From positions 1 through 34,004 of the forward strand of contig LIZR01000007.1 in NCBI GenBank assembly GCA_001302825.1: a stretch of DNA of 34,004 bases, in the 5' to 3' direction. Made by a program: the position numbers and the translations under genes. This stretch comes from Planctomycetes bacterium DG_23 (GTDB lineage: Bacteria > Planctomycetota > DG-23). The notes beneath the pieces are model-generated. The model was not told where the DNA came from, did not search any database, and saw only the letters and a program-made list of their open reading frames with translations. Below, one piece after another: positions 6,322-24,274 of this stretch (position 1 is the first letter of the stretch; every line of letters begins with the position of its first letter).

Positions 6322-6397
6322 TGGTGGGCGATACTGGACTTGAACCAGTGACCTCTTGCTTGTCGAGCAAGCGCTCTTCCCACTGAGCTAATCGCCC
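6322..6397 (-). tRNA. tRNA-Val (anticodon GAC), CCA encoded
   Basis: Reverse complement GGGCGATTAGCTCAGTGGGAAGAGCGCTTGCTCGACAAGCAAGAGGTCACTGGTTCAAGTCCAGTATCGCCCACCA; acceptor GGGCGAT/ATCGCCC, anticodon stem CTTGC/GCAAG with loop TCGACAA, T-arm ACTGG-TTCAAGT-CCAGT. Confidence 0.97.
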
Positions 6398-6555: not shown

Positions 6556-8163
6556 TTGGAGGTGGATTTGAAACTACGCTGGGAAATTCTTCTCATCGGG
6601 CTAATCCTCGTCGCAGCATTTGGCCTGAGGATGTATAAACTGGGCAAAAATGAACTGTGGCTGGACGAGGCCTACTGCACGCTCACGGCCAAAAAAGGGC
6701 CGGTGGGAATAGTCCAGGAACTGAGGACCGATAATACGCCGCCTCTTTATTATCTTTTGCTTTATCTCTGGATGAAAGTTGCAGGAGAGGATGAGGTGGC
6801 GCTGAGGAGCCTTTCGGTGGCCTTCGGCGTGGCCGCGGTTTTCCTTATTTACTGCCTGGGCAGAAAAAACTTCAGTCCCAAAGTAGGCCTCTGGGCAGGC
6901 TTAATTTTGGCTATAAGTCCTCTCCATATCTATTACTCTCAAGAGACGCGTATGTATGCGCCGCTGGTCTTTTTCCTGATACTCTTTTTCCATTTCCTCC
7001 TGCGGCTTCTGTGGGAAAGCAGGGCCTCAAACTGGGCGGGTCTTATAATTTCCGGAATCCTCGCCCTCTACACCAGTTATGCGGCATTTTTCTTTTTGCC
7101 CGTGGCGTCAGTCTTTTTTGTCCTGAGGCCGAAGCGGAAAGAGCAGATAAAAATGCTCGTCTCGCTTCTTATCATAGGCGCTTTCTTTCTTCCCTGGGTT
7201 CCTATCCTCCTATCTCAACCTTCGGCCCAGGCTACTACCTGGCTCGGGGCCTACTGGGAAAAAGGCAAATGGCTTATGCTACCCCGCTCCTTTGAGGCCA
7301 TTTTCCTGGGTGCAAATTACCCCCCTTATCTCAGGTCGCTTCCTCACGGAACGGCAAAACTATTGCGCATAGCCACCTTAATCCCGGTGGGGCTCATTTT
7401 TTGCTCAAGCGTTTTTCCCTGGAGAAAGGAACGGACGGGAAGCGAGCGAAAGGGGATATTATTTCTGCTTCTCGCGGCACTTTTTCTTCCTCTGGTTCTG
7501 GCATTTTTGCTATCTTTCTGGCGGCCTATGTTTGTGGTAGGAAGACATGATTTGATAGTGGTGCCGGTGGCGGCTTTGCTTCTGGGGATGGGTCTGGCGA
7601 AGTTGGGGCGGTTCTGGGCGCTGGGCTTGACTTGCCTGGTTATTTATTTCACCTGGGCAACGCTAAAAACGAATTACGGAAGCCGGCCAGAATTCTACGA
7701 AAAGGCCGCCGCAGTCTATATCCTGCAAAATAGCAGGGCGGAAGATGCGGTAGTGTTCACCGGCTATCGCCGCGCTCCGCTGGAATATTATCTGGGACTA
7801 TTCGGCGAACTCAGGGGGGCCAGACTACGCTATTATTCCTTCCCGCCGTCGGTAGCCCGGCATCTGGGTTGGTATGATAAGGCCGGGCTTCTACAGGAGG
7901 AGGAGAAACTCAAAAGCGATGCCCGCCGCCTGGCGCACCTGGTCTTGGAGGAAATCAGCCCCGGCAGTAAGGTCTGGATAGCCCAGTCCAAACAGCGAGA
8001 CATACGGGAAAGGATAAACCGCTATTTTGCCGGCGAGATGCAAAGGCTGGCTCAGGAGGAGGCGTTTGAAGAACTTCGGGACCTAAACTATCCCGACCTC
8101 GGCCTGAGATGCTTCCAGCGGCTGGAAAGAGAAAGCGGCACTCGAAACTCGTCACTCAGATGA
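6556..8163 (+). CDS. GT-C fold glycosyltransferase, PMT_2/GT39-GT83-like membrane protein
   Basis: 535 aa polytopic; ELWLDEAYCTLTA acidic first-loop motif, RTDNTPPLYYLLLYLWMKVAGEDEVALRSLSV, SPLHIYYSQETRMYAP typical of this family. Confidence 0.88.
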   Translation: MEVDLKLRWEILLIGLILVAAFGLRMYKLGKNELWLDEAYCTLTAKKGPVGIVQELRTDNTPPLYYLLLYLWMKVAGEDEVALRSLSVAFGVAAVFLIYCLGRKNFSPKVGLWAGLILAISPLHIYYSQETRMYAPLVFFLILFFHFLLRLLWESRASNWAGLIISGILALYTSYAAFFFLPVASVFFVLRPKRKEQIKMLVSLLIIGAFFLPWVPILLSQPSAQATTWLGAYWEKGKWLMLPRSFEAIFLGANYPPYLRSLPHGTAKLLRIATLIPVGLIFCSSVFPWRKERTGSERKGILFLLLAALFLPLVLAFLLSFWRPMFVVGRHDLIVVPVAALLLGMGLAKLGRFWALGLTCLVIYFTWATLKTNYGSRPEFYEKAAAVYILQNSRAEDAVVFTGYRRAPLEYYLGLFGELRGARLRYYSFPPSVARHLGWYDKAGLLQEEEKLKSDARRLAHLVLEEISPGSKVWIAQSKQRDIRERINRYFAGEMQRLAQEEAFEELRDLNYPDLGLRCFQRLERESGTRNSSLR

Positions 8164-9957
8164 TGGGGGACGGGTGAGTCGTCGCCAGATTAGAGCCAGA
8201 ACAATCCCCGCGATGGTCATAACCGAAAGCGCCGCACCTAATATCACGCTTGCGGGCAAGAAATAAAAAGTGAGCGCAAACTCTCCGCCTGCCACCTCGG
8301 CAGCAATAAGGCCCTCTTCGGAGAGGGCATTCGTCGTTTTGCCGCCTGCGAAAACTCGCCAACCACGGTAAAAATTTTGATTGAGGACGAGGAGGTCGCG
8401 CGAATCACTTCTGCCCTCTACTCTTATTTGGTTACAGGAGAAAAAGGTAATACGCGGGGTTTGCTGGGAATCTGACAAATACGCCTCGCCTCGATAATGA
8501 TCCCGATCTTGAGGAATGGCGCACCATTTGAGATGCAAGGGGTCGGAGGCATTGACAGAGCCCTGATTCTGGAGGAAATTAAGATACATACCCAGGGCCA
8601 GCCGACCCGGTAATTGACCGCCGAGTTTGGGGAGGGGCCCGGCATAGTACTTGGCCCACCCCTGGTGAAAAGGGGCTTCTTCGGTTGCTTCAGGCGGCTT
8701 AAAGGTAAATACCGGTGAAAGTAAAGTCCGATGCACCAGTATCAGGTCCAGAGTGACCAGCGCCACCAGGAAATACGCCAGGAAAAGTAAAACCAACTCC
8801 CTTTTTCTTCTGCCACAGCGGATGACAAAATCTATCGGTTTCCACAGGCCCTCCCCGCAAGTCAGGGCCATAACCAGAAGCACCAGAACAATAAAGCGAA
8901 AGGGCAGATGTATAGAAGCGAAAATGGGTGTCTCCGCCAACAGGCCATAAAGATATACCGGAGAATCGATGCCGAAGGAAATGACCAGGGCCACCATACC
9001 TGCGCAAAATAGCGGCCAGTTCTTCTTGATGAAAAAGTAGCACCCTATGGCAAATAAGAAAATGGGGATGACGCCTATGTAGGCATCGTATTCCCAGGAG
9101 CCGTATCGGCCCACGAAATCAGGCCTCAAGGTCTGGCCTCTTTTAAGCAGTGCCCGGGCCAGGACCTTAAAGCCGGAGCCGGAATAATCCTGTCCCACCG
9201 GGACTGCCCTGTGGAAAAACTCTACCATAGGGATAAGTTTCACGGCCGAAAGGCCCAGGGCCAGTAAAAGGATGAGCATCATTCGGCTTAAGGGGCGAAT
9301 CTTCTTTTCCCGGAAACAAAGGAAAAAACCATAAGCAAAAAGTAAAACCCCGGACCAGATAAGGGGATAAATGGCACCGGAGAAGAAAAGAAGCGTGCAG
9401 AGGGAAGCGGTAAACAATGAATAGATGGGCCGCTGGAGAGAATGCTCGTAGCAGATGACTATCCAGGGCAGAAGCAAGATGAAGGTATGGCCCAGGTGAC
9501 CCACGGCGAGATTCATCGCCATCCAACCATTCAGCCCCCAGAGAACTCCGACCAGTATTGCCCCGGGCCCTTTGATTTTATACTTCAGCGCCAGACTATA
9601 TGCCCCAAACATACCGAGGAAAAGAAGGGCCAGGACTATTATCTTCGAGCCCACCACCTCACCCCAGATAAGTACGGCCAGGAAAAAGGGGGAAAGAGAA
9701 TCTTCAAAGGTATGCGCGAAAAGAGGATTGCCGCCGTGCAGATAAGGGTTCCAGAGGGGGAGTTGACCAAATTTCAGGATACATCTGCGGGAGATGCCCA
9801 GCCAGGTCAACCACTGCGGCCAGTCGTGGATGCCTAAATTTGCTATGGGAGAAAATAGCGGCAGAAGATAAATAAAAGCCAAGAGTCCGAAGAAAACCAG
9901 CCCAAGCCACCTGCCCTTGAAAGCGTCTTTCATATCTTTTTTCTCTCTATCTGCCAT
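8152..9957 (-). CDS. YfhO-like polytopic membrane protein (putative GT-C glycosyltransferase)
   Basis: 601 aa; IHDWPQWLTWLGISRRCILKFGQLPLWNPYLHGGNPLFAH, LLLPWIVICYEHS, C-terminal FYRGWRVFAGGKTTNALSEEGLIAAEVAGGEFALTFYFLP resembling YfhO family. Stop overlaps the convergent 6556-8163 gene by 12 bp. Confidence 0.78.
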   Translation of the reverse strand: MADREKKDMKDAFKGRWLGLVFFGLLAFIYLLPLFSPIANLGIHDWPQWLTWLGISRRCILKFGQLPLWNPYLHGGNPLFAHTFEDSLSPFFLAVLIWGEVVGSKIIVLALLFLGMFGAYSLALKYKIKGPGAILVGVLWGLNGWMAMNLAVGHLGHTFILLLPWIVICYEHSLQRPIYSLFTASLCTLLFFSGAIYPLIWSGVLLFAYGFFLCFREKKIRPLSRMMLILLLALGLSAVKLIPMVEFFHRAVPVGQDYSGSGFKVLARALLKRGQTLRPDFVGRYGSWEYDAYIGVIPIFLFAIGCYFFIKKNWPLFCAGMVALVISFGIDSPVYLYGLLAETPIFASIHLPFRFIVLVLLVMALTCGEGLWKPIDFVIRCGRRKRELVLLFLAYFLVALVTLDLILVHRTLLSPVFTFKPPEATEEAPFHQGWAKYYAGPLPKLGGQLPGRLALGMYLNFLQNQGSVNASDPLHLKWCAIPQDRDHYRGEAYLSDSQQTPRITFFSCNQIRVEGRSDSRDLLVLNQNFYRGWRVFAGGKTTNALSEEGLIAAEVAGGEFALTFYFLPASVILGAALSVMTIAGIVLALIWRRLTRPPSSE

Positions 9958-11575
9958 ATACCAGTTGAACCAAATCCTGGGCCGTGGGATGCCGCTCAGG
10001 GTCTTTTCTGGTCATAACCAATATGCGCACCGGAAAACGAAAATCCAGATTATCCATCTCCCGCTGGACGATGATTTCATCTCGACTAACTTCCGGGAGA
10101 GGATAATCATTCTCTTGAGCCCAGTCCCGGAACCTGCGCAAATTATCTTTCGGGGTAAGGAAAAAGACTATGCGCTCAAGGTCCTCTTCTTCATATTCCA
10201 ACCACCTCAGGGTAGCGTGCAGACCTATAGAAGGGATGTTAGAGTAAGCGGTGAAATAGGCTCCAGTCGCATCAAGTGCTGGAGCGGGGAATACGGCCAG
10301 GGTGGCTTCATACTTCTGGGCCAGGGGAATGAAGGCCTTGCTCAGTGTAGTAAGGTCAATTTCCCCGGACTGGTGCCAATCCGAAAGGGGGATGGAAGAT
10401 TGGCTCACCCAGTAATGATTGAAATCTGCCGTGGCCTTTACCGAGAAAATGGCCATAGCCGCAAAGGTGAGCAAAATGAAGACGCGAACGGCTCGCAGAC
10501 GCTGCATTCGCGCCAGGCCCTGGTCCCAGAGAGTGCCTGCGAATACGCCCGCAAGGACACTGGCCGGCACAATGGCCACCGCATAGTGTCGCGGCAAACC
10601 GGCTGCCAAGAAAAAGGAGGCCCCCAAAATTATCCAGAAGGCCACCACAATGAGTTTGATAAATTCCTGCCGCACCTTTCCAAAGGCCAGAAGCACCCCC
10701 ACAGTCGCAAGGCATCCCGCGGCCGGCCCCATATAATCATAACCATATAGAATATCCGAGCCCCGAAGATGAGTAAACCAACCCAAGAAAAGTTCGGCGG
10801 CAAAGCCGGCGAAACTGAGGGGCGCAACATAACCGGAAGCGAGTTTATAGTCAAACCAGTTATGTCGCCAGTTCCAGTAAAAATTTGGACTCAATATTAC
10901 AAAGGCCAAAAGCAGGGAAAGGTAGATTTCTTTGCGCCTCAGCCAGCGGCGATACGACCGAGAGACCAAAAGAAAGACGAAGGCCGTGGGCACTAAAAAG
11001 AAAATGGTTTCCTTGGTCAATAGTCCCAGGCCCAGGACCACCCCGCTTAAGAGCACAAGTTTACGGCTATCCCGCTTCAAGCCCTGCCAGAAGACGAAAA
11101 GCCATAGCGTTGCCAGAAAGAGGTTAGCCAGTTCCTGGATGATATACTTGGTAAAAAGTATATGCACTTCACAAAGGCCGAGAAAGAGAGCGGCAAAGAT
11201 GGCCCCGACCCTGGAGGTGGCCTCTCGGGCAAGCCAATAAATGAGCAGGATATGGAAAGTGCCCAGGAGAAGATGGCCCAGGCGATAGCGGAAGGTTTCG
11301 CCCCGGGCTATGGGCGAAGCGGAATGAATTAGATAAATCATAACCGGGCCGTGGTCCGTGCTGTGTATGGGTAGGTTGATCCGTCCCGGAGTAATGGATA
11401 TGGTGTTGGCCAAGACTACCCCCTCCGGTTCATCATCAAAAAAGGGCAGCCAACTGCCGTAAAAGCGAAGCAGGAAGGAAAACACCACCACACCGGCCAG
11501 GACGAGCAGGTATCTCTTTGATTTTCCCCCGCCGGCAGTGCCATAGTCAGCAGTTTCTATTAAGCCTTCAGTCAT
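9947..11575 (-). CDS. GT-C/PMT_2 (ArnT-like) membrane glycosyltransferase
   Basis: 542 aa; LRFYGSWLPFFDDEPEGVVLANTISITPGRINLPIHSTDHGP; same architecture as the 19178, 20808 and 22606 ORFs. Confidence 0.83.
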   Translation of the reverse strand: MTEGLIETADYGTAGGGKSKRYLLVLAGVVVFSFLLRFYGSWLPFFDDEPEGVVLANTISITPGRINLPIHSTDHGPVMIYLIHSASPIARGETFRYRLGHLLLGTFHILLIYWLAREATSRVGAIFAALFLGLCEVHILFTKYIIQELANLFLATLWLFVFWQGLKRDSRKLVLLSGVVLGLGLLTKETIFFLVPTAFVFLLVSRSYRRWLRRKEIYLSLLLAFVILSPNFYWNWRHNWFDYKLASGYVAPLSFAGFAAELFLGWFTHLRGSDILYGYDYMGPAAGCLATVGVLLAFGKVRQEFIKLIVVAFWIILGASFFLAAGLPRHYAVAIVPASVLAGVFAGTLWDQGLARMQRLRAVRVFILLTFAAMAIFSVKATADFNHYWVSQSSIPLSDWHQSGEIDLTTLSKAFIPLAQKYEATLAVFPAPALDATGAYFTAYSNIPSIGLHATLRWLEYEEEDLERIVFFLTPKDNLRRFRDWAQENDYPLPEVSRDEIIVQREMDNLDFRFPVRILVMTRKDPERHPTAQDLVQLVYGR

Positions 11576-13539
11576 CCTGCGTCCCCCCCGCTGCGCAAAG
11601 AGCGAATTTCTTCCAGTTTGCCCCGCGCCGGACGGTGGTTGGGATATATTTTCAGTATGCGATTAAAGGCGTCCTCAGCCTCTTTGTAGCGACCTTGAAT
11701 TAGGTAGCATTCGCCCAGTTCCATCAGGGCGTCTGTATCGTCAGGGTCCCGGGAGATTATGCGCTGGAGTTCTCTTTGGGCCCGACCAAGCATCCCCTTC
11801 TCCTTATAGGCCAGCGCTAACTTGTAGCGGACCGCGGAAGAATCCGGGTCGAGCGCCACATTTATCCTTTGGGCAGCGATACCGCTAATCCAAATCCAGC
11901 CCAATCCGCAGAATACCGCCGCGATATAAACTGCCACCCAGATAAGTTTTCTTTTGCTAAAGAGAAATGTGCGCGCGGCCACTATGGCCGCGGTAAAAAC
12001 GAACGGGGTCACATAATGCACCCGCTTATTGCGGGAGGCCAGGATGATAAGAAAATAGGCGATGAAGGTGAAGGAAAATAGGCGGGCGATTTTGTCTTTT
12101 TTGGGGAGAAAGAAAAATATGCTCAAAAAAACCGGGCCGTAGAGAAACCAGTTCAGGAAACTGATGGTGTTGGCCACCGTGACCTTAGGCTCCGGCGTTA
12201 GACCCGATGGCGGCGGGCCAATGAGGCCAAAGTGATCGAACCTGACCATTACTTCGTATTTCACCGTTTCCAAAAAAACGGCCAAATTCCCCTGAGCGGC
12301 ACTTGCGCAAAGGATGAATACGAAAAAAAGCACCAGGAGGGCCAGATACTCCCCGTAGGCTCGAAGGGCTGGCCTCCGACTCGCTTTATCTAAAAGCAGA
12401 TGGAAAAACAAACCAACACTTATTACCAAGACCCCTGCATATCTGAAAAGAGCGGCCAGAAGTGCATAAACTACAAAAAGGCGAAATTCACCCTTGATTA
12501 GAAAACCGAAGGTAAGAAGTAAGGTAAGGACAAAAAGATGAGTGGGAAAAACTATGGTGCTGGGGTCGCTCTCGTGGAGAAAAAAATAACCGAAAATAGT
12601 GATGACCAGGATGAGAACGGCCGGCTGTGACCCCAGGGCCACCTTTTTGCTTTGTCCGCCTGGCTCCTGACCAAGAGCATCTTCTTTTTGAAAAAGAACT
12701 ATACTCAAGGCCACGAGGCTCGCCACATAGATGAAGGCCACAGAAGTTATACTCACTGCGCCGAAGGCATCCCCGAGAAATAGAAGCGCAAAGAGGTTGA
12801 AATAAGAGTGAAGAGGAGGGTTCACTACCGGAAAGCCGAATCTATCGGCATATTCCAGGTGCCAGTGAGGCAGCAGATGAGCCTTCAGGCTTTGGGCCAG
12901 ACCGAAGCGTTCATCGAGGTCCCAGCGACTGAGCGGGTCTCCGGAAATGGTCTTTCCCCCACTAAGGGCCGTGTCCAGCGCGGCAGAGGAAAGCATCTCC
13001 TGCGAGAAGACACCCAGACAAAGCAAAGTGGCAAAGCCAAAGGCAATATAAGGTACCGCTGACTTAAAAGACCAACGGAAGCGAATGTTCCCTTTGGCTT
13101 TTCTTGCCGCCAGAATGAGACCGAGAGCCACCACAGCAGCATCGAGCCCGAGAAAAGAAGACCGAGCAAGCGGCGAGGACGAGACTATCTTGAAGATAGT
13201 AGTGGCGGCAATAAGAAGCGCGACATTTAGAGGAAATGCCCAGGCCACGATGCGGGAAAAATGAACATCTTTCCCCGCGGGCCATAGCGCCAGAACCCAG
13301 ATAAATCCCGGGAGAATAAAGGCCAGGATAAGCGTAGCAACAACGGCAGATATTTTTAGCGACAAAGAAAAAATGGCACTATCAGGTGCATCCGGGCCGA
13401 ATACCACCGAGGCCTTGGCCCCCGGCGTGGCCATCCGGGAAAGGCCCATTATCGAAAGCCCGTAGACACCGAATAAGCCCAAAGAGCAAAGGGCCACTAT
13501 GACCAGAGCCTTCTTTCTGGAGATACTTTTCAAGACCAA
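11572..13539 (-). CDS. Polytopic membrane protein (PMT-like) with C-terminal TPR repeats
   Basis: 655 aa; about ten hydrophobic segments followed by SSAVRYKLALAYKEKGMLGRAQRELQRIISRDPDDTDALMELGECYLIQGRYKEAEDAFNRILKIYPNHRPARGKLEEI, i.e. TPRs. Confidence 0.75.
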   Translation of the reverse strand: MVLKSISRKKALVIVALCSLGLFGVYGLSIMGLSRMATPGAKASVVFGPDAPDSAIFSLSLKISAVVATLILAFILPGFIWVLALWPAGKDVHFSRIVAWAFPLNVALLIAATTIFKIVSSSPLARSSFLGLDAAVVALGLILAARKAKGNIRFRWSFKSAVPYIAFGFATLLCLGVFSQEMLSSAALDTALSGGKTISGDPLSRWDLDERFGLAQSLKAHLLPHWHLEYADRFGFPVVNPPLHSYFNLFALLFLGDAFGAVSITSVAFIYVASLVALSIVLFQKEDALGQEPGGQSKKVALGSQPAVLILVITIFGYFFLHESDPSTIVFPTHLFVLTLLLTFGFLIKGEFRLFVVYALLAALFRYAGVLVISVGLFFHLLLDKASRRPALRAYGEYLALLVLFFVFILCASAAQGNLAVFLETVKYEVMVRFDHFGLIGPPPSGLTPEPKVTVANTISFLNWFLYGPVFLSIFFFLPKKDKIARLFSFTFIAYFLIILASRNKRVHYVTPFVFTAAIVAARTFLFSKRKLIWVAVYIAAVFCGLGWIWISGIAAQRINVALDPDSSAVRYKLALAYKEKGMLGRAQRELQRIISRDPDDTDALMELGECYLIQGRYKEAEDAFNRILKIYPNHRPARGKLEEIRSLRSGGDAG

Positions 13540-13699: not shown

Positions 13700-14371
13700 T
13701 CAGGATTTTTGCGGTGAGAAATCAAAGACTATGAGGAAAAAACTTCCCCATAGCCTTTTCTTGATGGAGATGTAGTTTGCTCCTGTCTGCTGTAGCATCT
13801 GGCGGAGGCTTTTGGGAACATAAGAAATCCCCAGAGAGAAGGCCGGACTGAATACGGCACCAAAAGACTTATCCTTCGGGAGCCCCAGAAAAACGAAGTT
13901 GCCAATGCGCAAGGCGGAATAAAGCCGGGCCACGAGGCTGCGAGGATTCTGCTCAAGGAATATGCCCACCGCGTCCTTCTTCATCACCCGTTTTATCTCG
14001 GCCAAACCTTCAAGGGGCTTGTTCCAATAGCACAGGGTGACTTTGCCCATTACGCAATCAAAAACATCCTCACGAAAAGGAAGTTTCTCCACATCGCCGA
14101 CCAGGAAATAGCCCCGCTGGCTGGCTCCTGATTTCTCAGAGGCCAGTCGAATTAAGAGCTCATTTTTGTCCAAGCCACAAACTAAACTGCCCGGCAAAAG
14201 TTCCCTAATTCTAATTGCTGCCGTGCCCGTCCCTGTGCCCACATCAAGAATCCTTTTTGCTCTTCTGCCTGTGAGATGTCGCCTGACAGTACGCACAAAA
14301 GCGCGCATCACAAACCAATGATAACGCCTGTAGCGCTTATCCATTTTATTCAAGCGTTCATAGATGTCCAT
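13700..14371 (-). CDS. Class I SAM-dependent methyltransferase
   Basis: 223 aa; RILDVGTGTGTAAIRIRELL (motif I), VCGLDKNELLI, FLVGDVEKLPFREDVFDCVMGKVTLCYW, LAEIKRVMKKDAVGIFLE. Confidence 0.9.
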   Translation of the reverse strand: MDIYERLNKMDKRYRRYHWFVMRAFVRTVRRHLTGRRAKRILDVGTGTGTAAIRIRELLPGSLVCGLDKNELLIRLASEKSGASQRGYFLVGDVEKLPFREDVFDCVMGKVTLCYWNKPLEGLAEIKRVMKKDAVGIFLEQNPRSLVARLYSALRIGNFVFLGLPKDKSFGAVFSPAFSLGISYVPKSLRQMLQQTGANYISIKKRLWGSFFLIVFDFSPQKS

Positions 14372-14414
14372 TTCGACCTTCAGCCTTCGAGCCAGACTAC
14401 CGGGCTTTCCTGTT

Positions 14415-15782
14415 TTATCTGAAATAAGAAAGAAAAAGCCTGAGTTGGCCGGGCAGGGAACTCAAGCGACCATACCTCATTCTATCCAGGATATATCGCG
14501 GACGCAAATAGAATTCCTTCAGCCCCCGGCGCACCATTTTTTTCAAGAAATCAAGCGAGTGTTCTTTTACGAAAACTTCCGGGAAAAGTTGTGCCGGGTC
14601 GGCTTCTCCGATGCCCGGCTCGCCCATCATCTCGGCAAATTTGGTGCCTGGATAGGGAATGGCAAAGTGAAAAGCGGCGTAGGTGGGGCCCAGCCGTTTG
14701 GCAATCTCAATGGTGGCCTCCATATCCTCCCGGGTCTCCGAAGGAAACCCGAACATAAAGAAGAGCAACACCTCAATGCCGCTTTTCTTTATGAGGCGCA
14801 CGCCTTCTTCCAGGGCCTGGAGTGTCGCGCCCTTATTAATGAGTTTCATTATCCTCTGGCTGCCGGTCTCTATGCCGGAGTGAATGAGCCTGCAGCCGGC
14901 CTTACGCATCGCCTCCAGTATCTCGCCGTCAACTTTGTCCGCCCGGGTCTGGCAGCACCAGCGGAAATCGTAGTCCTTTTTCGCCAGGTAGCGCGAGACC
15001 TCCATCACGAAATCCCTGTCCAGCGTAAATTCCAGGTCGAAGAAATAGCCGGTCTTAACCCCATAGCGGGTGATGGCGGTATCCACTTCTTTTAGAAAAT
15101 GGGATGTGGGCTTTTTGCGGATCCTGGTGCCATACATCACCTTGGCACAGAATATACAACCAAAGGGACAGCCGCGGGTAGCCTCAAAAAGGACGAAGGG
15201 CCTACCCAATATCTCATAGAAATATCTCTTGAGGGGGAAAAGCCCGTAGGCCGGGATGGGGAGGCTGGACAAGTCCAGGGGCTCTGCGAGAGGGGTGTTG
15301 ATTATTTCGCCGTCGCCGTGCGACCTGAAGGTAACTCCGGCGATTTCGGCGAGCCGCTGCTTGCGGCTTATCTCCAGGACCGCCTTTTCCGGCTCACCGC
15401 GGATAACCCCGGTGGCCGAGGTGAATTCCAACACTTCTTTCGGAAAGACCGTGCCGTGATAACCCATAACATAGACTTCCGAAGCAACTTCTCTTATGGC
15501 GCGGGTCACATCAAGGAAAGGCCGAATGTCCGTGTTGGGGCACTGCCAGCGGTCAAGGCCGGAGGAGGTTATGAAGACCTTATCTGCGCCGGATATGCGC
15601 CGGGCCACCTCCTCCGGGCGTAGGCGCTCGGCCTGGGCATCGACCACCTTCACCTCAATGCCCTCTTGAAGAAGTAGCGCGGCCGCATTAGCCAGCGAGA
15701 GGGGAAACCAGATACGATTGTAGGTGGCCTCAAGATAGGTTATGGGATAATACCAGCAAGGCCTGACCAGTGCTACTTTCAA
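14415..15782 (-). CDS. B12-binding-type radical SAM protein
   Basis: 455 aa; CPFGCIFC (CxxxCxxC), N-terminal Rossmann-like region with PLSLANAAALLLQEGIEVKVVDAQAERL, SGIETGSQRIMKLINKG, FFMFGFPSETREDMEATIE. Confidence 0.92.
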   Translation of the reverse strand: MKVALVRPCWYYPITYLEATYNRIWFPLSLANAAALLLQEGIEVKVVDAQAERLRPEEVARRISGADKVFITSSGLDRWQCPNTDIRPFLDVTRAIREVASEVYVMGYHGTVFPKEVLEFTSATGVIRGEPEKAVLEISRKQRLAEIAGVTFRSHGDGEIINTPLAEPLDLSSLPIPAYGLFPLKRYFYEILGRPFVLFEATRGCPFGCIFCAKVMYGTRIRKKPTSHFLKEVDTAITRYGVKTGYFFDLEFTLDRDFVMEVSRYLAKKDYDFRWCCQTRADKVDGEILEAMRKAGCRLIHSGIETGSQRIMKLINKGATLQALEEGVRLIKKSGIEVLLFFMFGFPSETREDMEATIEIAKRLGPTYAAFHFAIPYPGTKFAEMMGEPGIGEADPAQLFPEVFVKEHSLDFLKKMVRRGLKEFYLRPRYILDRMRYGRLSSLPGQLRLFLSYFR

Positions 15783-15804
15783 TCAATGCTTCTCCAAGTC
15801 TAAC

Positions 15805-16551
15805 TTATTTCACACCTAACCAAAGTCGCAGACGCAACTTCGCCAAAGCATATGAGTCCTGGAAGATATCCTTCACGATGCGTACGGTGGTCTCCAGGTC
15901 TTCTATCCATTCCACAGGTATCTCCCCAATCTTAAATCCCCGGCGCTCGGCCATCACCAATAGTTCGGTGTCAAAGAACCACCTGGGGTCGTGAAGTAAA
16001 GGGCGCAGTGTGTGCAGGGCCCGGGCGGTAAGGAACTTGAAGCCGCACTGGGCATCGGAGAAGTGAATGCCGAAGATCAGGTGCACTAAAAGATTATATC
16101 CCCGGGATAAAATCTCCCTTTTGAGAGAGCGGGTGATGCGAGAACCCGGAATGAGCCGAGAGCCGATGACTACATCTGCTCCCTGGGTCACCAATTCCAG
16201 GGCCTCCGGCAAGTGCTTCAAGTTCGTGGATAAATCCACATCCATATAGCCCACCACATCCGCTTTGCTCTGGCCCCAGGCAAATTTGAGCGCCCGGCCT
16301 CGGCCCTTCTGCTCCAGGCGGGTATAAGAAATCCTGGGGAATTTCTCCATTAAGGCCTGGGCTTCCGCCGGCGTGGAATCCGTGGAGGCGTTATCGGCTA
16401 TCACTATGCGCCAGTCGCAATCCGCCTCTTTTCCCAGAAAATGGTGAAGCCGGCGAATGTTCACCGGCAGGTCTTTTTCTTCATTATATACCGGAACTAT
16501 TATGTCCAGAGTAAAATGGCGCCCGCCCAAACTTTTGCTTTCGCCGCTCAT
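15805..16551 (-). CDS. GT2 glycosyltransferase, dolichyl/polyprenyl-phosphate hexose synthase type
   Basis: 248 aa; DIIVPVYNEEKDLP, IADNASTDSTP, GYMDVDLSTNLKHLPEAL, GSRLIPGSRITRSLKREILSRGYNLLVHLIFGIHFSDAQCGFKF (ALG5/DPG-synthase-like). Confidence 0.92.
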   Translation of the reverse strand: MSGESKSLGGRHFTLDIIVPVYNEEKDLPVNIRRLHHFLGKEADCDWRIVIADNASTDSTPAEAQALMEKFPRISYTRLEQKGRGRALKFAWGQSKADVVGYMDVDLSTNLKHLPEALELVTQGADVVIGSRLIPGSRITRSLKREILSRGYNLLVHLIFGIHFSDAQCGFKFLTARALHTLRPLLHDPRWFFDTELLVMAERRGFKIGEIPVEWIEDLETTVRIVKDIFQDSYALAKLRLRLWLGVK

Positions 16552-17786
16552 CCGGCCACCTCTTTCACCGCCTGCACGATGTAGTCCAGGTTCTCACGAG
16601 AGAGATTTACATTATTGGGAATCTCTACAGACTTCGCTGGCAGGCTCTCTGCCACCGGACAGGATTTGGCTTCCCCTGCGAAGATATCGAGCCGGTTACA
16701 GGCGCACATATCATCCCGCTGCGTATCCACGCCCCTCTTAAGAAGTCTCTGCCGAAACTCTCCTGAGTTCTCTACCAGCACTCTGAAATACAGGTATATG
16801 TGCTCACCCCTGGCCGAAGGTACAACAACTCCCGGCGTACCCTCCAGGGCCTGGCAAAGATAAGCACCATTCTGGGCCAGCGATGCATTCACTCCATCCA
16901 CGCGCTTCAGTTGTTCCAGGCCAGCGCGGGCTTGAAAATTAGGCATCTTCTGCCGCCAGTGGGGCGGAAACTCCTCCGGCAAAATGACCTCTTCCTCTAC
17001 ACTTCGGTCCGCCCAGTCCGAACGCAGGAGGGATAAAAGACGAAGCAGGGGATAGGTGGTAAAGGGAAATATCTTCGGACGGGTGAGAAGGTAAGCCAGA
17101 AGTCCTTTGACCACCGATTTCATCGCGAAAAATTTTGAGGGCAAACGAAATTCACTCTCCAGACCCCTCACCTTGTCGGCCAACTCCCTGTCGTCGGTGG
17201 TGAGCATTCCTCCCCCGAAAGAAGGCATATTCTTCCCTATGCTGAAACTGAATAGGCCCATCTTTCCCCAGGCGCCCACCTTCTTTTCCTGAACTGACGC
17301 CCCCAGAGAATGGGCGCAATCTTCTATCACAAAAAGACCGCCTCTTTGGGCGATATGGGCAATTTTTTCCATATCCGCCGGCTGGCCGAAGATGTGGGTG
17401 ACGATGATGGCCCGGGTGCGCGGGGTTATCTCGGCCTCGATGAGTTTGGGATCTATGTTGAATGTATCGCTTTCTACATCCACAAATACCGGTTTTGCCC
17501 CGGCCAGTTTCACCATAATAGGCATAGCGTGGAAGGTATATGCCGGCAAGATTATCTCATCGCCATCTTCCAGAGCCAGCGCCTTAAGTCCCAGCCAAAG
17601 CCCCAGCCGCGCCGAAGCCACGGCCACGGCATTTTTCACTCCTATGTAAGAGGCAAAGGTCTCCTCCAGCCGGCGAACTTCCTCACCCTCCAGGAGACTC
17701 CCCTTTATGAGGCTTTGAAAGAAAGCGGCAAATGCCCCGGGGCTTAAGTTTATCATATGTCTTGAGTAAGCCCGCATAGATTTCAT
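16548..17786 (-). CDS. DegT/DnrJ/EryC1/StrS (ArnB-like) PLP-dependent sugar aminotransferase
   Basis: DEIILPAYTFHAMPIMVKLAGAKPVFVDVESDTFNIDPKLIEAEITPRTRAIIVTHIFGQPADMEKI, VIEDCAHSLGA, FSFSIGKNMPSFGGGMLTTDD. Start moved from 17912 to ATG 17786, which gives ATGA overlaps with both neighbours. Confidence 0.92.
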   Translation of the reverse strand: MKSMRAYSRHMINLSPGAFAAFFQSLIKGSLLEGEEVRRLEETFASYIGVKNAVAVASARLGLWLGLKALALEDGDEIILPAYTFHAMPIMVKLAGAKPVFVDVESDTFNIDPKLIEAEITPRTRAIIVTHIFGQPADMEKIAHIAQRGGLFVIEDCAHSLGASVQEKKVGAWGKMGLFSFSIGKNMPSFGGGMLTTDDRELADKVRGLESEFRLPSKFFAMKSVVKGLLAYLLTRPKIFPFTTYPLLRLLSLLRSDWADRSVEEEVILPEEFPPHWRQKMPNFQARAGLEQLKRVDGVNASLAQNGAYLCQALEGTPGVVVPSARGEHIYLYFRVLVENSGEFRQRLLKRGVDTQRDDMCACNRLDIFAGEAKSCPVAESLPAKSVEIPNNVNLSRENLDYIVQAVKEVAG

Positions 17787-19159
17787 CCCCAGGCAATATG
17801 TCTCAAACGCCGAAAGAGCGAGGCAATAACCCGGGTAGAGGTTATCTGCCGGAAGTTGCGCCAGAGCACCCCGAAGCGCAGATAGAATTCCAAGAAGGCC
17901 CTGCGCCTCCAACTGGCCAGGGCCTGCGCCGACAGCCCTTCCAATTCCACCAGCACATGGTCCACATCGTATTTGCGCAGGTCATCTACCTTTATATAAC
18001 CCTTCTTTTTGTAAAGGTCGAAGATTTCCGTGCCCGGAAAAGGCACACACAGATTGAACTGCGCCGAATCCAGATCCGTTTCCTTGGCAAAGTTTATGGT
18101 TTCTCTCACCGTGCGCGGCGTCTCCCCGGGAAGGCCAAAGATGAAAAAGCCTACCGTGTATATCCCCAATTCTTTCGCACATTTTACCACCCGGCGCACC
18201 TTTTCCCGGTTTACTTCTTTATGGATATTATGAAGTATCCTTTCATTGACCGACTCTATTCCAAAGGCCAAAGAATAGCAACCGGCTTTATGCATCCAGA
18301 CCAGCACCTCCTCATCCAGGGTTCCTATATGCACCCCATCCGGGCATTTCCACCATATTTTAAGCCCCCGTTCAATGATCCCTTTACAGATGGCTATCAC
18401 GCGCTTGCGGTCCAGCGTCAGGTTATCGTCCTCAAAATGTATCTCTCGCACCCCCCATTCTTTCACCAGATATTCAATCTCATCTAAGACATTCTCTGGA
18501 GACCTTGCCCGCCACTTCCCTCCGGTAAGCACGCTATTAGCGCAGAAGGCGCAGCGAAACGGACAGCCCCGCGAGGTGAGCATAGTCACAAAAGGGGCCT
18601 GGCGAAAATAGGCGCCGTGTGGGGCCTGACCATATCTTTCCAGATGCAAGAGATGATATGCGGGAAAAGGCAGGCTATCCAGATTTCCAATGAGCTCTTG
18701 CTTGCGCAAATGAATCTGGCCATCTCGCTCAAAACAAAGGCCGGGAATTTCCTCCAGACTCTTTTTTCCTTCCAGGGCCTCAAGCAGCGCCGGGAGACTG
18801 CTCTCCCCTTCTCCGACAATCACGAAATCCACATCCTTCTCGCGTGCCGTTTCTTCAGGAAGGCAGGTGGGATGGACCCCGCCCAGGACCACAGTAATTT
18901 TGGGGTCTTTGGCCTTAATCAGGCGGGCGAGGGCCAGAGCGTCGTAGAAGTTATGGGTCATAGTGCTTATGCCGGCCACCTGGAACTCGCGGCGAAGCAC
19001 CTCCCGGCGAAGCCGCTGCCAGTTGCCCGAGAGGTCCGCATCCAGTATCTCTACTGCTTTTGCGTCTTTCTCCAGGCAGGCGGCGATATAACCCAGGCCC
19101 AAAGGTGCGCTATAAAAATGCGAGCCGAATGTCGGCGCATTGATAAGAAGGGTTCGCAC
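17783..19159 (-). CDS. B12-binding domain radical SAM protein
   Basis: 458 aa; PLGLGYIAACLEKDAKAVEILDADLSG, VVLGGVHPTCLPEETAREKDVDFVIVGEGESSLPALLEAL, TSRGCPFRCAFCANSVLTGGKWRARSPENVLDEIEYL, FFIFGLPGETPRTVRETI. Confidence 0.94.
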   Translation of the reverse strand: MRTLLINAPTFGSHFYSAPLGLGYIAACLEKDAKAVEILDADLSGNWQRLRREVLRREFQVAGISTMTHNFYDALALARLIKAKDPKITVVLGGVHPTCLPEETAREKDVDFVIVGEGESSLPALLEALEGKKSLEEIPGLCFERDGQIHLRKQELIGNLDSLPFPAYHLLHLERYGQAPHGAYFRQAPFVTMLTSRGCPFRCAFCANSVLTGGKWRARSPENVLDEIEYLVKEWGVREIHFEDDNLTLDRKRVIAICKGIIERGLKIWWKCPDGVHIGTLDEEVLVWMHKAGCYSLAFGIESVNERILHNIHKEVNREKVRRVVKCAKELGIYTVGFFIFGLPGETPRTVRETINFAKETDLDSAQFNLCVPFPGTEIFDLYKKKGYIKVDDLRKYDVDHVLVELEGLSAQALASWRRRAFLEFYLRFGVLWRNFRQITSTRVIASLFRRLRHIAWG

Positions 19160-19177
19160 TGCAAGCCTCTTTCAAAA

Positions 19178-20791
19178 TTAGAGCGGTCTGCCCATAACTA
19201 TTACAAAAAGACCTTTCAAATCCGGCTTAGAAGCGGTCTCGGTTTTGTCCATAAGCAAAATCTTCACCTCGAAATCAAAGGTTTCATCGCTGCCCCGGAA
19301 CTTACGTCGGGAGTGAAATTCCCGTGCCACGGGCCCGCTTACCTCGTAGCCGTTGTCCGCAGCCCATTTTCTGAAATCCTTCACTCTTAAAGAGGGGTCG
19401 AGAAAAACGATAATCCTCTTCTCGCAGCCCGGTGGGTAAGGATGCCAGAGCAGTTCCGGCTTTACTGTAATTATGGGAATGCCGGAATAGGCGCCGAAAA
19501 ATGCGCCCACTTCCTCCACAGAGCCGGAAAAGACCGCGAGCGTCGCACCCTCCTGGCGCGCTATTTCTATCAATCCCTGACTTATGGTGGTGCAGTCGGC
19601 CCAGCCTTCTCCTCCCAACCACCCTAAGTGCGTGGCCGAAGAGAGCAACGAGTACTCCTTGAACTTATGGGTAGCATAGCAGGAAAAGAGCAGCATCACC
19701 GCGCAGGCCCCCATCACCACTGCCTTGGCTGCCCTTCGCCACTGCCACATTTGCGCAAGCGGCAGGGAGGCAAGAGACGCCGCGGGCAAGATACTCACTG
19801 CGAAATGCCGCGGCATCCCTTGAAAAATAAATAGCGATATACCCACCACGGCCCAAAAACAAAAATGCAGGAATCTGGCCAGTTCACTTTTCTCATCGTC
19901 AGCCTTAAACACATATCGCAGAGTATAAAAAGCCCCCATTAAAAACACCAGCCCTATCACCGGACCCATATATTCCCAGCCCAGGTCGCTTTCAATATTC
20001 CCCGGAATCTTAGGAAAATAGTAACCCAGGAAAAGGTCAAATGTGTGCGCAGAGAAATTGAAGAGGCGTAAATACCCCAGTGCGTTACGTTTGAAAGCCA
20101 CAAATTGGTGCGTAATAGTCCAGTAGAGAAAAGGGCTGGAGATAAAGAAAAATAGAGCAAGGGAAAGATATAAGGCCGGCTTGGAAAACCAGCGCCTGCC
20201 CCGGCTCGTCAGGAGCAAATAAAGAAAAAGTCCCGGGACGATAAAGAGGATGGTCTCCTTTGCCAGAAACCCCAAGGCCCCGGCTACGGCAGCAGCAAAC
20301 ATCCATCCGGCCTTTTCAGTCTTTACGGCCTTAAAGAAAAAATAAAGGACGAGCGCAGCGAAAAAAAGATAAGTAATATCCTCCAGCATATTCTTGGAAA
20401 GAAAAATGTAAATCTCGTTCAAGGCGATAAGTACGGCAGCAAAAATCCCGGAAAGTGGACCAAATCCTTCTTTGGTGAGTGCGTAAACGGGAAAAATCAT
20501 CGCCGCCCCCAAAATCACATGTATAAAACGCCAGCCAAAAGGCGTGTCGCCGAAAAGAACCGAACTCACCCGGGTAAGATAAGGTTCGAATGGACCGTGA
20601 TATGTGCCGTAAACGGGGAGGAAAATTCTGCCGGGTTTTAGGGATATGTCTCTTGCCAAAAGCACTACATCCACACTATCATCTATGAAGGGCACCCCAC
20701 TGCCATAAATTCTGAGGCCCAAAGCCACCAGAAAAATAATCATCACTATTGCCAGCCGGACTTTTCTATTCATCTCAACTTCCGCTCGCAT
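19178..20791 (-). CDS. GT-C/PMT_2 (ArnT-like) membrane glycosyltransferase, paralog
   Basis: 537 aa; LRIYGSGVPFIDDSVDVVLLARDISLKPGRIFLPVYGTYHGPFEPYL; polytopic; C-terminal soluble domain as in the 20808 and 22606 paralogs. Confidence 0.83.
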   Translation of the reverse strand: MRAEVEMNRKVRLAIVMIIFLVALGLRIYGSGVPFIDDSVDVVLLARDISLKPGRIFLPVYGTYHGPFEPYLTRVSSVLFGDTPFGWRFIHVILGAAMIFPVYALTKEGFGPLSGIFAAVLIALNEIYIFLSKNMLEDITYLFFAALVLYFFFKAVKTEKAGWMFAAAVAGALGFLAKETILFIVPGLFLYLLLTSRGRRWFSKPALYLSLALFFFISSPFLYWTITHQFVAFKRNALGYLRLFNFSAHTFDLFLGYYFPKIPGNIESDLGWEYMGPVIGLVFLMGAFYTLRYVFKADDEKSELARFLHFCFWAVVGISLFIFQGMPRHFAVSILPAASLASLPLAQMWQWRRAAKAVVMGACAVMLLFSCYATHKFKEYSLLSSATHLGWLGGEGWADCTTISQGLIEIARQEGATLAVFSGSVEEVGAFFGAYSGIPIITVKPELLWHPYPPGCEKRIIVFLDPSLRVKDFRKWAADNGYEVSGPVAREFHSRRKFRGSDETFDFEVKILLMDKTETASKPDLKGLFVIVMGRPL

Positions 20792-20807
20792 ACCCCCAGA
20801 GTAAATA

Positions 20808-22409
20808 TTAATTCAGAGAAACCAAAAGGTTCATAAGTTCTTCGCCCGCTTTCTCCTTCACCTGTTCTTCTTTCTCAAAAACAAGGATGCGCACGGGCCA
20901 GGAGAAGCTTTCTTCGCGCCCCTGGAATCTCCTGGAGGCTATCATAGTCTCTTGTTTATTCAAAGTCATTTTTAGATTATGTCTTTCTGCCCATTTCTTA
21001 TATCGCCTCCCCTTAACCCCCGGCACCAAAATTATCACTACCTTCTTCAAATCCTCTGGATAGACCTTCCTCCAGCGATGCTGCCTCTTGGAACTAACCA
21101 CCTTCCAGCCGGAATAGGCCTCCATAAATGGGCCGGCGGCGCCCAGGTTCTTCCCGGGCAAAACCACTAAGGTCGGCTGGTATTTCCCGATCACCTCAAT
21201 CAAGCCCTTACTCAAGGTGGTCATATCTATGGAGACCCACCCTTTGTCATCCGGGACACAGATGGTGCTGTGGGGGACCCAGTATTCCCCAAATTTATAA
21301 GTAGCAAAGGATGCTATGATGCACATCAGTACCAGGGCCCCGATGACCAGGTATTGCGCCCCCTTTTCCCTTTCCCAGCGCCAGAGACTACCTAAAGCCG
21401 TAGAGGCCAAGACACTCGCCGCGATGAGGGCCGGGAGAAAATGTCTTGCTTCCCCCCTAACAAAAAGAAGAGAAACTCCTGCTACAGACCAGAACACCAG
21501 ATAAACCATCCTTATAAAATTATCCCTCAATTTCACCGTAGAATAAAACACCCCCATTAAAAGGACCATCCCCGAGAAGTGGTCCATATATTCATAGCCG
21601 AACTCTGTTTTGTAGGCCTTACCGCCAATAAAGAAAAAACTGCCCAGGAAGAGATTAAAGGCCTTGCCTGAAAAGCGGAATAACTCCACAAGCGCGGCTC
21701 TGTGGGGGTGGTGAGGCCAGTTGCGAGTATAGCCCCACAATAAGTAGGGACTGAAAATGGCCAGGGAGATGAGAAGAGCCAGGTAAATCTCCTTGCGCTT
21801 CAGCCACTTCCAGTAACCTTTGGAAAAAAAGACGAAAAAGGCCAGCCCCGGTATGACAAACAGGATGCTTAAATGGGTTATCATCGCCAGCCCAAACACA
21901 ATGCCGGAAGCGAGCATCCATCCCCGGCTATCTAATCTTAAGGCCTTCCAGAAACAAAAGAGCAGCAAGGTGCCCAGGAACAACAGCAAGCCATGCTCAA
22001 TATTATATTTAGAGTAAAATATATGGACAGGATTAAAGGCCAAAACCGCCATAGCCAGCAGGGCTTCAGTCTGGCTCAGGCCGTCCTTGACCAGCAAATA
22101 GAGGAGGGGCAAAGTGAGTGTGCTAAAAAAAACGGTGGCGAATTGCCAACCAAAAGGGCTCTGGCCGAAGATTAATGAACTTAGCCGTGAGGCATACACC
22201 AAGAGGGGGCCGTGGTAGCCACCATAAAGGGGTAAACAGACGTGGCGGGGATTAAACGAAATATCCCGGGCTATGGGGACGATATCTGCGGCATTGTGGA
22301 TAAAAGGAAGCCAACTCCCCCAGAGCCTTAGTCCTGCGCCCAAGACCAGGATAGTCAGCACCAGGATTTCACTTCTTCCTAATTTTATTTTGGGCCAAGG
22401 TGCCTTCAT
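20808..22409 (-). CDS. GT-C/PMT_2 (ArnT-like) membrane glycosyltransferase, paralog
   Basis: 533 aa; LRLWGSWLPFIHNAADIVPIARDISFNPRHVCLPLYGGYHGP; C-terminal TTLSKGLIEVIGKYQPTLVVLPGKNLGAAGPFMEAYSGWKVVSSKRQHRWRK. Confidence 0.83.
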   Translation of the reverse strand: MKAPWPKIKLGRSEILVLTILVLGAGLRLWGSWLPFIHNAADIVPIARDISFNPRHVCLPLYGGYHGPLLVYASRLSSLIFGQSPFGWQFATVFFSTLTLPLLYLLVKDGLSQTEALLAMAVLAFNPVHIFYSKYNIEHGLLLFLGTLLLFCFWKALRLDSRGWMLASGIVFGLAMITHLSILFVIPGLAFFVFFSKGYWKWLKRKEIYLALLISLAIFSPYLLWGYTRNWPHHPHRAALVELFRFSGKAFNLFLGSFFFIGGKAYKTEFGYEYMDHFSGMVLLMGVFYSTVKLRDNFIRMVYLVFWSVAGVSLLFVRGEARHFLPALIAASVLASTALGSLWRWEREKGAQYLVIGALVLMCIIASFATYKFGEYWVPHSTICVPDDKGWVSIDMTTLSKGLIEVIGKYQPTLVVLPGKNLGAAGPFMEAYSGWKVVSSKRQHRWRKVYPEDLKKVVIILVPGVKGRRYKKWAERHNLKMTLNKQETMIASRRFQGREESFSWPVRILVFEKEEQVKEKAGEELMNLLVSLN

Positions 22410-22460
22410 CGTCCTATCCTGACAGCCAGTTCTTTTTTAGCCCCAAAATTCTACGAAAAT

Positions 22461-22605
22461 CGGGCCTCAAAGCCAAAGGCCCCTGCCGCCACGGCAGCCA
22501 GCATCCATCCCCTTTTTCGGCCTTTATAGCCCTAAGATAAAGAAATAGAAAGTAAGCGCGGCGGCAAAAATACCAGCAGCTTCCCCAAGCCCTGTAGGTA
22601 AGACA
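22461..22605 (-). pseudogene. Decayed fragment of an additional PMT_2 paralog
   Basis: Minus strand gives VLPTGLGEAAGIFAA-ALTFYFFILGL, then AIKAEKG, then GWMLAAVAAGAFGF in three frames; matches EGFGPLSGIFAAV...AALVLYFFFKAVKTEKAGWMFAAAVAGALGF of the 19178 paralog. Confidence 0.75.
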
Positions 22606-24216
22606 TTATTCCAAAGGGACAAGGAGGTTCATAAGTTCTTCGCCTCCTTCTTCTCCCACTTGTTCCTTTGTCTGGAAAACCAGAATACGAACGGGCAAGG
22701 AGAAGTTCTCCACGTGCCCCCGGAATCTCCTGGAGGCCGAAACTTCCTCCTCCTTGCGCAGGGTCATTCTCAGATTTTGCCTTTCGGCCCACTGCTTGAA
22801 CCTTTTCTCCCCCACCCCCGGCGCCAGAATAACCACTGTCCTCTCTAAATCCTCAGGGAAAATCTTCCTCCAGCGGTGCTGCCTTTTGGAACTAACCACC
22901 TTCCAGCCGGAATAGGCCTCCATAAATGAGCCGGTGGCGCGCAGGTCCTTCCCGGGCAAAACCACTAAGGTCGGTTGGTATTTCCCGGTCACCTCAATCA
23001 AGCCCTTAGCCAAAGTAGTCATATCTATGGGATGGCCTTCGTCCGAAATAGCCACCGGAACTTCAGCGCTGGTAATCCAGTATTCCTCGAATTGATGACT
23101 GGCCCAGGCACTTGAGGCAAAAAGGGCGGCAAAAAGCACCAGAACTCCAAGGCGTGCCCACTTTTCCTTTTTCCAGCGCCAGAGGTCCGCCAAAGCGACC
23201 GAAGCCAAGGCCGCCGCCGCCAGCACCAGGGGCACAAAATGCCTCGCTTGCCCCACCACCAGAAGCAGCGAAGCCGCCACCGCCGGCCAGAATACGAAAT
23301 GCATCATCCTCACCAAATCGTTCCTTACTCTCCTCAGCGAATAGAGCATCCCTATTACCAACACCAGCCCGGAAAGCCGCCCCATATATTCGTAGCCGAA
23401 ATCGCTTTCAAGAGAGATATCTCCCATAGGAAAAAATCCGCCCAAAAAGAGGTCCAGGGTGATACCGTAAAAGCCAAAAATCTCAAAGTATTTGGCCGCG
23501 TTATTGTAATCGAACCAATTATGCCGCCAGTTCCAATAAAGATAAGGCGAAAAAATAGCCAGAGCAATGGCCAGAGCCAGATAAGTTTGCGGCCTTCGTA
23601 ACCACTTCCGGCCCCTGGAAGAAAAAAGCAAAAAAAGAAAAAGTCCCGGAAGAGGAAATATGGTTCCTAATTGGGAAATCATTCCCAGACCCAGAGATAC
23701 GCCGGCAAGAATCATCCACATTCCGCTTTCTCTCTGGAAGGCCCTCCAGAAACAAAATAGCATAAGCGCGGTGGTGAAAAATATCGCCGGCGTCTCCACA
23801 TTGTAATCGGAGTAGAATATGTGCACCTCATTAAAGGCCACCAGGGCCATAGCCATCGTCGCCTCCAACTTCCCCAGCCCCTCGCGCACTAAAAAAAACA
23901 AAATGACAAAACTCAAAACCGCAAGAATTATGCCCCCGAGACGCCAGCCCATAGGGCTCTGGCCGAAAACCAGCGCACTCAGGTAAGCCTGGTAAGTTGA
24001 AAAGGGGCCGTGGTCGCTGCCGTGGGCGGGAAGGTTAAACCTCGAAGGCTCAAGACTCACATCCCGGGCAATGGGAATTATGTCCGTCCCATCCTCCCTG
24101 AAGGGAAGCCAACTGCCCCAGAGCCTCAGTCCCACGCCCAAAATGAGGACAATTACCACCAGGGTCTCAAGTTTACTTAATTTCATCTTCAGCCAGGAAG
24201 ACTCCATCCCCCCCAT
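22606..24216 (-). CDS. GT-C/PMT_2 (ArnT-like) membrane glycosyltransferase, paralog
   Basis: 536 aa; LRLWGSWLPFREDGTDIIPIARDVSLEPSRFNLPAHGSDHGPFSTY; C-terminal TTLAKGLIEVTGKYQPTLVVLPGKDLRATGSFMEAYSGWKVVSSKRQHRWRK. Confidence 0.83.
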   Translation of the reverse strand: MGGMESSWLKMKLSKLETLVVIVLILGVGLRLWGSWLPFREDGTDIIPIARDVSLEPSRFNLPAHGSDHGPFSTYQAYLSALVFGQSPMGWRLGGIILAVLSFVILFFLVREGLGKLEATMAMALVAFNEVHIFYSDYNVETPAIFFTTALMLFCFWRAFQRESGMWMILAGVSLGLGMISQLGTIFPLPGLFLFLLFSSRGRKWLRRPQTYLALAIALAIFSPYLYWNWRHNWFDYNNAAKYFEIFGFYGITLDLFLGGFFPMGDISLESDFGYEYMGRLSGLVLVIGMLYSLRRVRNDLVRMMHFVFWPAVAASLLLVVGQARHFVPLVLAAAALASVALADLWRWKKEKWARLGVLVLFAALFASSAWASHQFEEYWITSAEVPVAISDEGHPIDMTTLAKGLIEVTGKYQPTLVVLPGKDLRATGSFMEAYSGWKVVSSKRQHRWRKIFPEDLERTVVILAPGVGEKRFKQWAERQNLRMTLRKEEEVSASRRFRGHVENFSLPVRILVFQTKEQVGEEGGEELMNLLVPLE

Positions 24217-24245: not shown

Positions 24246-24274
24246 ATCTTACGAGAAATGCTCCTGATTGTCAA
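24246..24274 (-). promoter_or_regulatory. Sigma-70-type promoter for the 24216 PMT gene
   Basis: Minus strand TTGACA (24274-24269), 17-bp spacer, TAAGAT (24251-24246). Confidence 0.6.

Follow-up and report, generated by a model that had tools for sequence, protein, structure and literature searches.

A recurrent pairing of GT2 and B12-type radical SAM genes in a candidate glycosylation locus of Planctomycetes bacterium DG_23

What could be made by a run of genes that combines membrane glycosyltransferases, a sugar aminotransferase and B12-type radical S-adenosylmethionine (SAM) enzymes? The question is raised by contig LIZR01000007.1 of Planctomycetes bacterium DG_23. The window analyzed here is this complete contig of 34,004 nucleotides (C140), which belongs to a 2.02-Mb, 173-contig assembly (G000) that is 84.6% complete. 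A first-pass annotation had described eight minus-strand genes at 13700–24216 and read them as one Arn-like glycan module: three GT-C proteins of the PMT_2 type (PMT_C, PMT_D and PMT_E), a radical SAM enzyme (rSAM1), a DegT-type aminotransferase (DegT), a family 2 glycosyltransferase (GT2), a second radical SAM enzyme (rSAM2) and a methyltransferase. All eight genes are present, with the domains and in the order described. The interval was right for these genes but too short for the run, which goes on along the same strand as far as 8152 and takes in three further membrane proteins. We found that the GT2-rSAM2 pairing is a real and recurrent gene module, narrower than the list of eight genes.

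We compared the locus with three genomes of the same class (G001, G002 and G003). First, the order DegT-GT2-rSAM2 was the same in all three, at identities of 41–57% (DegT, 41–48%; GT2, 53–57%; rSAM2, 47–49%). The three genes lie on one contig in G001. In G002 and G003 the genes are split between contigs, one beginning within DegT or at GT2 and the other breaking off within DegT, which fits the same order. In addition, a scan of the genome collection returned three loci, all from the class relatives. Because the order is kept in all three other class genomes, the results support a common function for the three genes. The co-occurrence check proposed in the first-pass annotation held for this core trio in other genomes and failed for the full gene set.

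The survey for rSAM2 covered 392 planctomycete genomes at a threshold of E ≤ 1e-90 and found the gene in 13 of them. The 13 proteins formed a single clade with 100/100 support in a tree of 51 radical SAM proteins. GT2 was directly upstream of rSAM2 in 10 of the 13 genomes, and in G262 a single gene separates the two; the rSAM2 genes of G333 and G315 had no neighbouring GT2. Seven of the GT2-rSAM2 pairs overlapped by 4 bases. As a rough control, we took other radical SAM loci, picked by similarity to rSAM1 and with flanks of 1.5 kb, and a GT2 neighbour was found at 3 of 27. The difference between 10/13 and 3/27 gave a Fisher P of 7e-5, a test inflated by related genomes, which are not independent; with adjacency counted once per family, the fraction was about 5/6 and P was 1e-3. 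In G344, G373 and G274, the GT2 partner was of another type and its adjacency to rSAM2 was kept. A GT2 type that varies while the adjacency holds points to the element that the GT2s have in common, namely the lipid carrier or its product. Several rSAM2 copies also had GT-C-type membrane proteins nearby. The gene that sits between GT2 and rSAM2 in G262 (L079, 7432–9342) is asparagine-synthase-like by reading.

The DG_23 genome has a second pairing, on contig C148 (L064, 7705–10789), where a GT2 gene is followed by a gene for a distant B12-type radical SAM enzyme and then by a methyltransferase gene. The clade of this radical SAM enzyme was also found in G001, G002 and G051, paired with GT2s that are 46–48% identical to the C148 GT2.

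The sequence and predicted structure of rSAM2 bear on what it might modify. Its cluster motif CX3CX2C (C205/C209/C212) is invariant in the 13 orthologues. The B12-binding domain PF02310 scored 30.3 bits in rSAM2, 1.8 below the cut-off of 32.1; all 13 orthologues matched the domain at E ≤ 1e-3, and the model shows alternating strands and helices in this N-terminal region. Judged by these features, rSAM2 is likely to depend on cobalamin. An invariant W79-Q80-C81-P82 follows strand 3, at the site of the lower-face residues in OxsB, TsrM and TokK, and is no more than suggestive of bound cobalamin. The first-pass annotation had called for structure prediction of the radical SAM enzymes. The AlphaFold model of rSAM2 (predicted local distance difference test score, pLDDT, 85) was searched against solved structures with Foldseek and ranked AprD4 first (template modelling score, TM, 0.77; E 3e-24), followed by TsrM, MgmA and OxsB. 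AprD4 was also first among solved relatives by sequence profile. AprD4 uses radical SAM chemistry to dehydrate a diol in a pseudodisaccharide (PMC5461906). rSAM2 has the same length and fold as this 1,2-diol dehydratase (6FD2); unlike rSAM2, AprD4 has CX3CX3C in the alignment, and no AprD3-type reductase is seen in the run. Because the coupling to GT2 is recurrent and the model lies close to a sugar diol dehydratase, we propose that rSAM2 would act on a sugar.

Alternatively, rSAM2 might alter the polyprenyl carrier by methylation, dehydrogenation or cyclisation, leaving the sugar as it is, and so supply the transferases with a dedicated carrier pool. The change of GT2 partner with unchanged adjacency would suit such an activity, since the lipid may be the common element, and the lipid-acting B12-type radical SAM families HpnR and TIGR04072 give weak matches. 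However, the nearest solved fold is that of a sugar enzyme, and rSAM2 stands in a fixed order with a sugar aminotransferase in this class. We regard a lipid substrate as quite improbable.

Both radical SAM proteins had HpnJ and BchE models near the top of their NCBIfam matches, and HpnI-HpnJ is likewise a GT2-radical SAM pair (PMC12583986). The two enzymes might then be hopanoid (HpnJ-like) or bacteriochlorophyll (BchE-like) enzymes located here by chance. However, rSAM2 scored 169 bits and rSAM1 239 bits against the HpnJ cut-off of 577.6, and the two gave 131 and 196 bits against the BchE cut-off of 481. GT2 did not match the HpnI model. The squalene-hopene cyclase family PF13243 had no match in the DG_23 assembly, at its 84.6% completeness, and only weak ones in G001–G003; strong matches occurred in only 4 of 12 genomes with rSAM2. 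The first-pass annotation had named grouping with such enzymes as a refutation, and neither radical SAM enzyme reached the cut-off of HpnJ or BchE. We ruled out a hopanoid or bacteriochlorophyll role on the model cut-offs and the missing hopene cyclase match, and consider such a role extremely unlikely.

The steps could also follow the order of the Arn pathway, which the locus resembles in having an aminotransferase, a polyprenyl-phosphate-type GT2 and GT-C proteins in one run. DegT would then aminate a nucleotide sugar, GT2 would load it and a GT-C protein would transfer it, and the radical SAM enzymes would work at another place in the glycan, C-methylation being one example. DegT scored far above the PF01041 cut-off of 19.8 bits, and K185 aligns with the lysine of the family that binds pyridoxal phosphate, which is thus retained. 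The DegT model (pLDDT 86) is closest in fold to GDP-perosamine synthase and ArnB, enzymes of nucleotide sugars, and the DegT gene precedes GT2. The listed open reading frame of DegT is longer; the likely start is the ATG at 17786, which overlaps the rSAM1 stop as ATGA. The best solved relative of GT2 is dolichol monophosphate mannose synthase (E 1.6e-14), and GT2 has no transmembrane segment.

Membership in the Arn pathway had to be rejected on the equivalog cut-offs, which were missed by hundreds of bits: DegT reached 171.5 against the ArnB cut-off of 631, and GT2 reached 34.6 against the ArnC cut-off of 529. The PMTs matched no ArnT model at E ≤ 1e-3; PMT_B to PMT_E gave only weak matches, to TIGR03663, a protein O-mannosyltransferase and an STT3 model. 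Unlike an Arn locus, the run contains radical SAM genes and lacks ArnA and ArnD, neither of which was found among the main open reading frames of the window, to which this search was confined. DegT also departs from its family. Its C-terminal half matches weakly, and the alignment reveals an insertion of about 55 residues, in which the model predicts two helices at lower confidence. The insertion is common to the class orthologues and to G168 and G222, and is missing in an ordinary DegT (L102). Two further arguments against the Arn order are that the run has no dehydratase or decarboxylase to form a keto sugar and that the GT2-rSAM2 coupling is kept where DegT is absent. We consider the Arn order unlikely. 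Insertion-type DegT proteins also occur in other planctomycetes, near PMT-like membrane proteins and without rSAM2 (L100, 9443–13639; L101, 3459–8797).

What then might the locus do? A probable polyprenyl-phosphate-type GT2 and GT-C proteins, together with a sugar aminotransferase and B12-type radical SAM enzymes, are the part of the earlier interpretation that is supported. We tentatively favour a multi-component transmembrane glycosylation locus with a sugar donor tailored by radical chemistry, a reading that we hold as plausible and short of probable. From the gene content, conserved order, clade structure and predicted folds, we infer the catalytic steps, the lipid carrier and the acceptor. 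GT2 would move a hexose from a nucleotide sugar to polyprenyl phosphate at the cytoplasmic face, as its family suggests. rSAM2 would modify the hexose, most likely on the carrier or as it enters the carrier. In this class, DegT would then aminate the sugar. A plausible site is a keto carbon produced by rSAM2, since the run has no nucleotide-sugar dehydratase or decarboxylase. The lipid-linked sugar would be flipped, and PMT_B to PMT_E and their neighbours would pass it on to a polymer or protein at the cell surface. In a stricter form of this scheme, the aminosugar would be built on the carrier and never exist as a nucleotide sugar: rSAM2 would convert the polyprenyl-phosphate-hexose into a membrane-bound keto-deoxy sugar, and a membrane-contacting DegT would transaminate it. 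We think this form quite unlikely.

Several observations weigh against a glycosylation locus of this kind. First, the identity between rSAM2 and AprD4 is only about 19%, the AprD4 model NF033070 gave rSAM2 100 bits against a cut-off of 500, and an AprD4-like predicted fold does not fix the reaction. In addition, nine rSAM2 genomes outside the class have no such DegT (E ≤ 1e-45), and G168 and G222 have the DegT type without rSAM2. Because this DegT type and rSAM2 co-occur only in the class at the thresholds used, rSAM2 need not hand its product over to DegT. The insertion in DegT shows only weak hydrophobicity, peaking at 1.0 on the Kyte-Doolittle scale, and parts of it are modelled with low confidence; hydropathy detected no transmembrane segment in DegT, and contact of the insertion with the membrane is a guess. 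Finally, library scans confined to the window proteins found no known flippase family.

In other genomes, the DegT-GT2-rSAM2 core is not accompanied by rSAM1, the PMTs or the methyltransferase. rSAM1 has a B12-binding domain (above the PF02310 cut-off of 32.1) and a CX3CX2C motif that starts at C199, and it falls in a clade of its own with 100/100 support. Against the AprD4 model NF033070 it scored 125 bits, below the cut-off of 500. Its orthologues in G002 and G003 (47% identity) are not linked to rSAM2, and G001 has no close orthologue, so the single composition first proposed for the two radical SAM enzymes is not supported. In G002, the rSAM1 orthologue adjoins a homologue (32%) of the 601-aa membrane protein of the window (L062, 7614–9398), and a homologue of PMT_A (34%) is near. 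rSAM1 probably serves a step of its own, linked to the 601-aa protein.

PMT_B, PMT_C, PMT_D and PMT_E are one paralogue family (33–53% identity). PMT_D and PMT_E are tandem copies with 53% identity, and PMT_B is 33–35% identical to the other three. The first-loop motif of PMT_D is HN, vs. DD, DE or ED in its paralogues, so that one of the two tandem copies may have altered catalysis. No homologues of PMT_B to PMT_E were found in nine other genomes at E ≤ 1e-15, and the methyltransferase had no match at the same threshold in G001–G003, G262 and G078. The view of these genes as conserved parts of a pathway finds no support in the relatives tested, and a single conserved pathway of all eight genes is unsupported.

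These results raise another explanation, in which the run is a glycan island with no single product: the trio that is conserved, GT-C genes expanded in this lineage, rSAM1 paired with a membrane protein and unrelated to the rest, and a stray methyltransferase. The position of the G002 rSAM1 orthologue beside a 601-aa-type protein and away from the trio would agree with this, as would the lack of PMT_B to PMT_E and methyltransferase homologues in the relatives and a strong promoter match that splits the run. However, rSAM1-DegT and DegT-GT2 overlap by 4 bases each, consistent with co-translation. We judge a mere island to be unlikely.

The coordinates are given in Table 1. From PMT_E to the methyltransferase, the intergenic gaps are 196, 16, 18, -4, -4, 22 and 43 bases; the largest separates PMT_E from PMT_D, and the other non-overlapping gaps are 16–43 bases. 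A promoter-like TTGACA-17-TAAGAT lies ahead of PMT_E at 24274–24246. A perfect sigma-70 consensus, TTGACA-16-TATAAT, lies on the minus strand at 13614–13587, just upstream of memTPR655 (a consensus match only). Because of this perfect match, the sequence suggests that memTPR655, PMT_B and the 601-aa protein are a separate transcription unit.

Table 1. Genes of the run and the convergent PMT_A, with window coordinates.
Gene	Position	Strand	Product	Length	Supporting match
PMT_E	22606..24216	-	GT-C glycosyltransferase (PMT_2)	536 aa	PF13231 90.7 bits
PMT_D	20808..22409	-	GT-C glycosyltransferase (PMT_2)	533 aa	PF13231 74 bits
PMT_C	19178..20791	-	GT-C glycosyltransferase (PMT_2)	537 aa	PF13231 98.7 bits
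rSAM1	17783..19159	-	B12-binding radical SAM	458 aa	PF02310 77.5 bits, PF04055 99.0 bits
DegT	16548..17786	-	DegT/DnrJ/EryC1/StrS aminotransferase, core gene	412 aa	PF01041 269.8 bits
GT2	15805..16551	-	DPM-like, presumed polyprenyl-phosphate glycosyltransferase, core gene	248 aa	PF00535 86.7 bits
rSAM2	14415..15782	-	B12-type radical SAM, core gene	455 aa	PF04055 99.6 bits
Methyltransferase	13700..14371	-	Class I SAM-dependent methyltransferase	223 aa	PF08241 58.2 bits
memTPR655	11572..13539	-	Polytopic, C-terminal TPR, possibly GT-C type	655 aa	TPR families; 13 hydrophobic segments
PMT_B	9947..11575	-	PMT_2 GT-C	542 aa	PF13231 82.1 bits
601-aa protein	8152..9957	-	Polytopic membrane protein, YfhO-like by reading only	601 aa	No Pfam match; 11 hydrophobic segments
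PMT_A	6556..8163	+	PMT_2 GT-C, convergent with the run		PF13231 60.4 bits

The run is flanked by thrS-infC-pheST on one side and dnaK-clpB on the other. No cobalamin riboswitch was found near it with Rfam at the gathering threshold, where a tRNA at 6325–6397 was the sole match; the genome encodes a corrinoid adenosyltransferase. At 29259–32936, the minus strand encodes a protein of 1225 aa that has TPR and secretin domains. Elsewhere in the genome, contig C172 (L065, 7363–18327) carries a cluster in which one radical SAM gene is of the B12 type and two others lack a B12 domain; the same cluster also encodes PMT_2-like proteins, a GT2 and an LPG_synthase_TM protein.

CsbB-GtcA-YfhO and its relatives are multi-component transmembrane glycosylation systems (PMC8035078). 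The DG_23 locus is like them, by domains only, in pairing a GT-A/GT2 enzyme presumed to charge polyprenyl phosphate with GT-C transferases. It differs from CsbB-GtcA-YfhO in that a radical SAM enzyme and DegT stand in a fixed order with GT2, that there are several GT-C paralogues and that no GtrA-type flippase is seen in the window. Remodelling of a lipid-borne sugar has a precedent in HpnI-HpnK-HpnJ, which makes bacteriohopanetetrol cyclitol ether (PMC12583986). There too a GT2 is near a B12-type radical SAM enzyme, and that enzyme remodels a lipid-borne sugar; unlike that system, the run stays below the HpnJ cut-off, has no deacetylase and comes from an assembly with no hopene cyclase match. 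DprE1/DprE2 change a sugar through a keto intermediate while it is on decaprenyl phosphate (PMC3937683), but these are flavin and NADH enzymes, and we offer them as an analogy with no homology implied. In the literature searched, we found no paper that unites radical SAM enzymes, DegT, polyprenyl carriers and a GT2.

The first characterised glycoprotein glycan of the Planctomycetota is unusually methylated (PMC5088730). If the proposed reading is true, B12-type radical chemistry on lipid-linked sugars would be a recurrent tactic in this phylum, beyond the hopanoid case, with two separate GT2-radical SAM pairings in one genome. It would also provide a concrete test set for B12-type radical SAM families that lack an assigned function, and would suggest that the Planctomycetota carry surface sugars not yet described.

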